From NCBI GenBank assembly GCA_002842095.1, contig PHCB01000007.1, positions 1-64,000 of the forward strand: a stretch of 64,000 nucleotides of DNA, written 5' to 3'. This document shows positions 50,669 to 53,685 of the stretch, one piece after another. Origin of the DNA: a candidate division BRC1 bacterium HGW-BRC1-1 (GTDB lineage: Bacteria > Sumerlaeota > Sumerlaeia > Sumerlaeales > Sumerlaeaceae). Below the pieces are notes generated by a model. That model was not told where the DNA came from and made no database searches. It saw only the letters and a program-made list of their open reading frames with translations. The first letter of the stretch is position 1. Each line of letters starts with the position of its first letter. The position numbers and the translations under genes were made by a program.

Positions 50669-52366
50669 TCAGTGGCGGAAGTGGCGCATCCCCGTGAACA
50701 CCAGGATCAGCCCTTTTTCATCCGCCGCCTGAATGACTTCCTCGTCGCGCATGCTGCCGCCGGGCTGGATGATGGCCTTGATGCCGATGTCCGCCGCGCG
50801 GTCCACGTTGTCGCGGAAGGGGAAGAACGCATCGCTGGCCATGTACGCGCCCCTCACGGGGTTGCATGCCTTCACGGCGGCGATGTTGGTTGAGTCGATG
50901 CGGCTCATCTGTCCGGCGCCGATGCCGATGGTGGCGTTGAGGCCCGTGTAAACGATGGCGTTGCTCTTCACGAACTTGGCAACGGTCCAGGCAAACATCA
51001 GTCCGTCGAGATCCTCGTCGGTGGGTTTGACCTTCGACACGATCTTCAGGTCTGCGCGCTCCACCATGCCGAGGTCGCGGTCCTGCACGAGCAACCCGCC
51101 CACAACGCTCTTCAGCATCTTCTGCGGCAAACGGGGGGTGAAGGCACCGGTGGCCATCAGGCGGACGTTCTTTTTGGCCGAGAAGGCTTCCTGCGCTTCG
51201 AGGCTGAAGGAGGGCGCGATGACCGCTTCCACGAACAATTCGAGGATGGCGTCGGCGGTTTCTTTGTCCACTTCGCAGTTAAACCCGATCACGCCCCCGA
51301 AGGAACTGACTGGGTCGCAGGAACGGGCGGCCACGTAGGCCTCTTTGAGTGTGTCGGCCTTCGCCACACCGCAGGGGTTGCTGTGCTTGATGACGCAACA
51401 AACGGGCTTGTCGTCGAAAGCGCGCACGATTTCTAGGGCGGCGTCGAGATCGACGATGTTGTTGTAGGAAAGTTCCTTGCCCTGCAATTGATCCGCGCGG
51501 GCCACACAAATTTCCTCGGTGTCGAGCTGCGCGTAAAAGGCCGCGGTCTGGTGCGGGTTCTCGCCGTAGCGAAGCTCCTGCAATTTGCCGAAGGAGGGGG
51601 CGAAGTCGTCCTCGTCCTCTTCGTCGCCGTGGCAGCAGTCATCGCCGCATTCTTCGCCGCACTCATCGTGATCATGACCGCAACCGCATTCGTGCTGTTC
51701 GGCTTCATCTGCGTCGTCGTCGAATTCGGGGTCTTCCATATCGTCGTCGTCGTCATCGAAGATGTCGTCGGGCACCTGCTCGGAGAAGTACGTGGCGATG
51801 GCCATGTCGTAGGCGGAGGTCTGGGCGAAGGCGTTCACCGCCAGCACGCGGGTGAGGTGGGGATCGTCGTCGTCGGGATCCTCAAGCATGTCAATAAAGG
51901 CGGGGTAAAACTCGGGGGAACTGAGCGTGATAACGTCCCGGTGGTTTTTCGATCCGGCGCGCAGAAGGGCGACTCCACCGATGTCGACCTGCTCCACGGC
52001 CTCTTCGAGAGAAGTCTCTTCATCGGCCACGGTTTCTTCGAACGGGTAGAGGTTCACCACGACGAGATCGATGGGTTTGATGCCGGATGATTTTAAGGTT
52101 TTCATGTCGTCCGAGTTGTTGCGGCGGGCCAGAATGCCGGCGAAGATTTTCGGGTGCAGGGTTTTCACTCGCCCGCCGAGAATCTCCTCCTGTTGCGTGT
52201 AGTCGGAGACGGAGGTCGCCTCGAACCCGTTTTTGCGCAGGTAGTCGAGGGTGCCGCCCGTGGAAAGTATCTCCACATTGTGGGCTTTGAGGGCGCGGGC
52301 CAGAACGTCGAGACCCGATTTGTCGTAAACGCTGATAAGCGCAGTTTTAATTGTTTGAGTGTCCAT
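50669..52366 (-). CDS. purH: Bifunctional AICAR transformylase/IMP cyclohydrolase with acidic Cys/His insert
   Basis: Last two steps of purine synthesis. About 565 aa from ATG 52366, longer than the usual 510-530. The N-terminal MGS domain has ALISVYDKSGLDVLARAL, STGGTLDYLR and GRVKTLHPKIFAGIL. The AICARFT domain has LRYGENPHQTAAFY, KELSYNNIVDLDAAL, CVIKHSNPCGVA and GIGAGQMSRIDST. Between them (about residues 200-259) lies an insert of Asp/Glu plus HDHDECGEECGDDCCH, with six Cys and four His. It follows the BMC and flavoprotein-like genes on the same strand (79 bp gap), so all three may share the BMC promoter. Confidence 0.95.
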   Translation of the reverse strand: MDTQTIKTALISVYDKSGLDVLARALKAHNVEILSTGGTLDYLRKNGFEATSVSDYTQQEEILGGRVKTLHPKIFAGILARRNNSDDMKTLKSSGIKPIDLVVVNLYPFEETVADEETSLEEAVEQVDIGGVALLRAGSKNHRDVITLSSPEFYPAFIDMLEDPDDDDPHLTRVLAVNAFAQTSAYDMAIATYFSEQVPDDIFDDDDDDMEDPEFDDDADEAEQHECGCGHDHDECGEECGDDCCHGDEEDEDDFAPSFGKLQELRYGENPHQTAAFYAQLDTEEICVARADQLQGKELSYNNIVDLDAALEIVRAFDDKPVCCVIKHSNPCGVAKADTLKEAYVAARSCDPVSSFGGVIGFNCEVDKETADAILELFVEAVIAPSFSLEAQEAFSAKKNVRLMATGAFTPRLPQKMLKSVVGGLLVQDRDLGMVERADLKIVSKVKPTDEDLDGLMFAWTVAKFVKSNAIVYTGLNATIGIGAGQMSRIDSTNIAAVKACNPVRGAYMASDAFFPFRDNVDRAADIGIKAIIQPGGSMRDEEVIQAADEKGLILVFTGMRHFRH

Positions 52367-52444
52367 TGTGCGCCCATCTCCACGCGGGCGGAGGAGGGGA
52401 TGCAAAGGGAATTTTCAGCTGCGAGACCGGAGAAATGCGGGTGC

Positions 52445-53290
52445 TCAGTCTGGGTGCAGCTCGATGCCCTTCATGGCGGCCTGATCGCGGGCCTGATCGG
52501 TGATGATGGCGTCGCGGGCGTGATTGAGTACTTTGCCGCCGTGGGACGCAACGCGCCAGACGTCTTCGGCGGTCACGAACTCGCGCTTCTGCGTGGGACG
52601 GGTGCGGGCCAGGCGGGCCGGGGTTTCGTTGACCACTGGTGTGAAGTGAGCCTGTACGATGCGGGCAAGCGACGCGGTGTCGATAAATTGAATGCCGATC
52701 TGCTGCAACTTGCGCAAATGATCCTCGGCGGTGCGAAGGACCGGCGGGGGAGCGGCGGCAAGTTGGTCCGCGAGGTCGCGACTCAAGGCGGCGATGTCAG
52801 TGCCAACAAAAATAGGTTTGTCTGCGGCGAGGCATGAAGCGACCAGTCGCGTCGGGGCGGAATCGGCAATGCCCAGGGCGATCTTTGCGGTGGTGTTGGT
52901 GCTGAAATGGGGCGCAATGACAGCTGTGAAATGAGCGCACAGGGCCGCGAAATCCACCTCGTTTTCAGGTGATATCAGCCGCGTGCCCGCTGGCAATAAT
53001 TTCAAGGTGGCAGCCGGGTCATGAAATTGCGCGTAAGTGTGGCTAAGCAGAAGCGCGAAGGACCGGCCTGCCGCAGCGAGGTTGGATAACTCTTTCATGA
53101 AATCAGCCGACGGAGGTTGAGAACCGGTAAAGAGAATCGCCGTTTCCGAAACTGGGATCGGTGGCTGGGTCGGTGCGGTTGCCGCGTTGGGAGTGTTGCT
53201 TGGAGGAGAAACCGCGGCAGAGTTTTCGAGGGCTTGCAACGCGGCTATAACCTCGGCGCGCACACGGTCGCGCAGATTTTCCATGTCCAT
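52445..53290 (-). CDS. Flavoprotein-like protein with putative microcompartment encapsulation peptide
   Basis: 281 aa. The first 20 residues (ENLRDRVRAEVIAALQAL) form an amphipathic helix. A Pro/Ala/Ser/Thr-rich linker (about 25-50) follows, the pattern of N-terminal encapsulation peptides on BMC cargo. The core (about 55-230) has flavoprotein-like strands and loops (ILFTGSQPPSADFMKEL, AVIAPHFSTNTTAKIALGIADSAP, ADKPIFVGTDI). The C-terminal EDVWRVASHGGKVLNHARDAIITDQARDQA resembles ends of BMC-linked proteins. The BMC-H gene lies 107 bp upstream. The family call is tentative and the ligand unknown. The ATG at 53284 is an alternative start. Confidence 0.6.
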   Translation of the reverse strand: MDMENLRDRVRAEVIAALQALENSAAVSPPSNTPNAATAPTQPPIPVSETAILFTGSQPPSADFMKELSNLAAAGRSFALLLSHTYAQFHDPAATLKLLPAGTRLISPENEVDFAALCAHFTAVIAPHFSTNTTAKIALGIADSAPTRLVASCLAADKPIFVGTDIAALSRDLADQLAAAPPPVLRTAEDHLRKLQQIGIQFIDTASLARIVQAHFTPVVNETPARLARTRPTQKREFVTAEDVWRVASHGGKVLNHARDAIITDQARDQAAMKGIELHPD

Positions 53291-53397
53291 TGCGGCGCTA
53301 TGGTGGGGGGGTGTGGTCACGTTTGAGCAAAGCACCGAACCCACGCTTTGTGGGCGCGGGTCCGGCGTCTTTCACAAATCTTCGTGATGAGTTTTCG

Positions 53398-53685
53398 TCA
53401 GCCCTGCGGAAGGATTTTTTCGAGATCGTTGTGGGGGCGGGCGATGACATGCACGCTGATGAGTTCTCCCACACGGCGTGCTGCCGCAGCTCCGGCGTCG
53501 GTGGCTGCTTTCACAGCGCCCACGTCACCGCGCACCATCACGGTTACCAGGCCGCCGCCCACGTGTTCCTTGCCGAGCAGTCGCACGTTGGCTGCTTTCA
53601 CCATGGCGTCAGCCGCCTCGATGGATCCCACCAAGCCACGGGTCTCAATCAGGCCCAGCGCGTTTCCGTAAATTTCGTCCGCCAT
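53398..53685 (-). CDS. Bacterial microcompartment shell protein (BMC-H, PduA/EutM type)
   Basis: Small hexameric shell protein, 95 aa. Nearly all of it matches the canonical fold: [56 protein letters not shown], and the ending [16 protein letters not shown]. At the pore position HVGGGLV replaces the PduA-type KIGSGLV, so the pore lining is Gly-Gly-Gly. An AGAGGA site precedes the ATG. It is the only shell gene in the window: a complete compartment needs pentamers (BMC-P) and cargo enzymes that must lie elsewhere. Confidence 0.95.

Follow-up and report, generated by a model that had tools for sequence, protein, structure and literature searches.

A lengthened, acidic Cys/His-rich linker between the two domains of a bacterial PurH: a plausible metal-binding tether

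The window analysed here is a stretch of 64,000 nucleotides in which purH, the gene for bifunctional AICAR formyltransferase/IMP cyclohydrolase, carries between its two domains a segment dense in acidic residues, cysteine and histidine. This raises the question of how such a segment came to lie within a central purine enzyme, and whether it might hold metal.

The purH gene and its product

The gene is encoded on the minus strand, with the following features:

50669..52363 (-), purH, bifunctional AICAR formyltransferase/IMP cyclohydrolase, 564 aa from ATG
51788..52363 (-), IMP cyclohydrolase (MGS-like) domain, about residues 1-192; Pfam MGS, E 1e-20
51602..51769 (-), expanded acidic Cys/His-rich inter-domain linker, residues 199-254, predicted to be disordered
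51629..51694 (-), Cys/His block HECGCGHDHDECGEECGDDCCH, 6 Cys and 4 His in 22 residues
50672..51589 (-), AICAR transformylase domain; Pfam AICARFT_IMPCHas, E 2e-106; alignment A1

The reading frame runs without stops from a TTG at 52405 down to 50669, and the ATG at 52363 (MDTQTIKTAL) is more likely to be the start than the TTG. The initial annotation had described the frame as intact, and we likewise find neither a stop nor a frame break through the insert. Two profiles identify the product as an equivalog PurH (NF002049, E 4e-205; TIGR00355, E 9e-191), full-length and with both domains, the scores being 635 bits against a cut-off of 528 for TIGR00355 and 682 against 402 for NF002049. The IMP cyclohydrolase domain is matched by phmmer to PurH structures, while the AICAR transformylase domain keeps its LRYGENPHQ start and the KHSNPCG catalytic motif. 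In alignment A1, which comprises 42 sequences (the PurH studied here and 41 from other phyla), the motifs RVKTLHP, NLYPF, IGG, KHxNPCG, VKSNAIV and RHFRH are invariant or nearly so. The flanking motifs had been called normal, which agrees with two equivalog-grade domains and conserved catalytic motifs. Because these motifs are invariant, the enzyme would be expected to work normally.

Length and composition of the linker

The linker was taken as the stretch from the last IMPCH helix to RYGEN, and was measured in 186 PurH, namely the one studied here, others of its class, 80 named-genome loci (mostly Proteobacteria, and none from the family of this genome) and about 80 genomes across other bacterial families. 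Here it spans 72 residues, whereas the 185 other bacterial PurH have a median of 26 and a maximum of 47; of the 72, 34 are Asp/Glu, 6 are Cys and 4 are His. The truly extra residues therefore number about 46, which is fewer than the 60 or so first reported; the Cys/His block itself had been quoted correctly. None of the 185 other linkers contains two or more Cys, and the earlier view that ordinary PurH lacks such an insertion is thereby borne out, as is the likeness of its composition to that of a metal-binding segment. Certain other PurH open frames reach up to 997 aa; those that were read proved to have N-terminal extensions and normal linkers.

The chance expectation for such a Cys/His block is approximately 6e-4 per genome, a value based on independent draws at genome composition which, given low-complexity clustering, serves as a guide only. 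Among 403 ORFs in 464 kb sampled from this genome (the window and 400 kb beyond it), the PurH linker is the sole segment that is rich in Cys, His and acidic residues together. Segments of the sample with similar Cys and His counts are mostly found in frames that look non-coding, and one is the His-rich tail of a hydrogenase. This tail, GHYHGGDQEPGHAHPHGQAHDHTHEH, follows DPCLDCAVH in a [NiFe]-hydrogenase large subunit at L212:9536-11050 (-), outside the window, where it occupies the place of the peptide that is normally removed in maturation.

No Pfam zinc-binding domain was found over the insert; at E values up to 1, just MGS and AICARFT_IMPCHas were matched in PurH, and the dense Cys/His region sits outside the folded core. 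A hydrophobic antisense ORF of 200 aa (51488-52090, plus strand), which faces the insert, has no Pfam match and was dismissed as a by-product of the complemented Asp/Glu codons.

Predicted structure

An AlphaFold2 model built with the 42-sequence alignment has a mean pLDDT of 88, with values mostly above 90 in both domains, 45-66 around residues 200-260 and about 45-60 in the insert itself, from which the linker is predicted to be disordered between well-folded domains. The top solved match of the model is the PurH of Mycobacterium tuberculosis (TM 0.85/0.92). This enzyme (3zzm/4a1o) and human and avian ATIC have the same two domains, catalytic motifs and fold as the protein studied here. The M. 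tuberculosis linker, however, is short, with about 13 residues between the two matched segments, and the acidic Cys/His stretch is without counterpart in the aligned structures shown.

Variability of the site among relatives

The PurH proteins of seven family members, all from other genera, are 55-62% identical to this one over their whole length. The acidic, Cys-rich form of the linker is absent from all seven and from every other PurH examined, so that the clade conservation which the initial annotation had proposed to look for fails for this form. Five of the seven have ordinary linkers. The remaining two have the second and third longest of the 186, both including His-x-His: 47 residues with THTRESGHDHD in G003 (L004), and 41 residues with HTHAHA in G002 (L008). 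What the clade shares is thus a tendency, visible in these two shorter linkers with His-x-His at this position, and not the sequence itself. His-x-His occurs in three of eight family linkers versus one of 178 outside the family (Fisher p 2e-4, for a motif picked after seeing the data), and the bias persists when this genome is left out (p 0.004, equally post hoc).

In a PurH tree, the three family genomes with His-x-His linkers fail to group as a clade; G002, G003 and this genome are successive branches below four family members with short linkers, with moderate support at the last forks. Repeated gain of a His-rich linker would fit this topology, as would an older His-rich linker that has since been lost. 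Since the next-longest linkers, both with His-x-His, fall in the same family, the site is a hypervariable linker which in this family tends to grow longer and to acquire His, and which has become acidic and Cys/His-rich in the present case. The expansion is probably recent, because the same stretch is found in no relative examined, and it was possibly passive, taking place on an already variable tether. For the same reason, selection on the Cys-rich form is not demonstrable.

Matches resembling a split PurH were observed in several families of the class (G011, G012, G014, G020 and G025), each with an AICARFT-like frame of 375-460 aa. In G012, G020 and G025 the IMP cyclohydrolase also has a frame of its own (215-275 aa), which gives the impression of a PurH divided at the linker.

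Origin and possible role of the linker

On balance, we favour a lineage-specific expansion of a disordered linker which probably chelates Zn, Ni or Cu. In an otherwise normal PurH, a fast-changing tether between the domains would have grown, in this lineage, into an acidic loop rich in Cys and His, leaving both active sites untouched. Judged by its composition, the loop is likely to bind a small number of soft or borderline transition-metal ions (Zn, Ni, Cu), in which case it would act as a passive cytosolic chelator. The expansion itself is established by the outlying length; the intact frame, the conserved catalytic motifs, the predicted disorder and the bias of the family to longer His-x-His linkers are likewise observed. 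Fresh repeat slippage was rejected as its origin because there is no tandem repeat and the codons of the insert are mixed (GAC 15/GAT 6, GAA 8/GAG 3). Metal binding is plausible, in that the linker looks able to hold metal ions, and it is again from the residue content that passive buffering is surmised. The genome has [NiFe]-hydrogenase genes and hence a use for nickel, though this does not identify the ligand of the linker. Acidic runs dominate the segment, and solubility alone could be their role.

Two Helicobacter pylori proteins provide the closest parallels. HspA (GroES) has a Cys/His-rich, nickel-binding C-terminal extension (PMC4671568, PMC7840056), and the C-terminal metal-binding region of SlyD has five each of His and Cys (PMC7840056). 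Both show that nickel can be bound by His/Cys appendages of housekeeping proteins. With HspA, PurH shares the pattern of a housekeeping protein bearing a lineage-restricted His/Cys-rich appendage outside the core fold. The HspA appendage, however, lies at the C terminus, is a conserved feature in Helicobacter and has been demonstrated to bind nickel, whereas that of PurH is internal, strongly acidic and known from the sequence of one genome. SlyD likewise carries its His/Cys-rich segment outside the folded domains, but the host protein is a different one, PurH is without an FKBP domain, and the likeness is not one of established sequence homology. Conservation within a clade is not seen for the PurH linker, to which the seven family members from other genera offer nothing closer than the shorter His-x-His linkers of two of them. 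We found no literature on metal-binding PurH/ATIC linkers.

Given this absence of conservation, neutral drift is a serious rival, to which we assign a real though clearly smaller likelihood. The site would then place hardly any constraint on its sequence, and the acidic run of Cys and His would have neither bound metal in the cell nor a function. Such a reading is in keeping with the predicted disorder, with the lack of any linker motif conserved across genera, and with the free variation of linker length and sequence among all relatives, in contrast to domains that remain 55-62% identical. Yet in a proteome of 1.3% Cys and 2.55% His, simple drift would not easily bring ten Cys/His together in 22 residues, and two relatives have His-x-His at the same site. 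If instead the segment had been selected as a metal store or metal-responsive device, bound metal would buffer the cytosol or alter the coupling of the two PurH activities. The composition is comparable to that of the H. pylori HspA and SlyD nickel-binding tails (PMC7840056, PMC4671568), and nickel enzymes are encoded in the genome; the linker is not conserved, however, and the neighbours of purH (a microcompartment shell protein, a flavoprotein and murD) are not metal genes, so that we regard this as unlikely. The known link between zinc and ZMP/ZTP received no support here, the genome having no ZTP riboswitch and a single marginal CobW-type match over 37 residues. It is highly improbable that the linker is a metal sensor tuning purine synthesis, in which metal would stiffen or cross-link the tether and alter transfer, AICAR (ZMP) levels then reporting metal status.

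An assembly error or chimaera in the draft contig could explain why the insert is absent from all relatives examined, but several features speak against it. The frame is unbroken through the insert, the GC content of the latter (58%) is close to that of the remaining gene (60%), codon use is similar, and gene order near purH agrees with that of relatives. A protein search of the genome revealed no second copy of the insert that could have been the source of a chimaera; four other DNA matches coding for CGCGH were discarded as donors, their frames not being gene-like. We therefore consider such an artefact very improbable indeed.

Should the preferred reading of a chelating loop hold, the few housekeeping proteins known to have acquired a metal-holding appendage would come to include a central purine enzyme, and an inter-domain tether would be shown as a possible site for one. 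If the loop does not bind metal, it is a clear case of how freely the PurH linker changes.

Gene neighbourhood

Two genes lie upstream of purH:

52445-53344 (-), flavoprotein-like gene
53398-53685 (-), BMC-H shell gene

The order shell gene, flavoprotein gene, purH is kept in four other genera (G003, G005, G001 and G004), where identity is 95-98% for the shell protein and about 60% for PurH; the pair was not found beside purH in G002 or G006. This arrangement does not track the linker, since it is present in G005, G001 and G004, whose linkers are ordinary, and was not found in G002, whose linker has His-x-His. Another BMC-H gene is located at G000:C3:300163, adjoining lpxI, and three EutN-type genes are present elsewhere. 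The shell genes of this genome are thus scattered among housekeeping genes.
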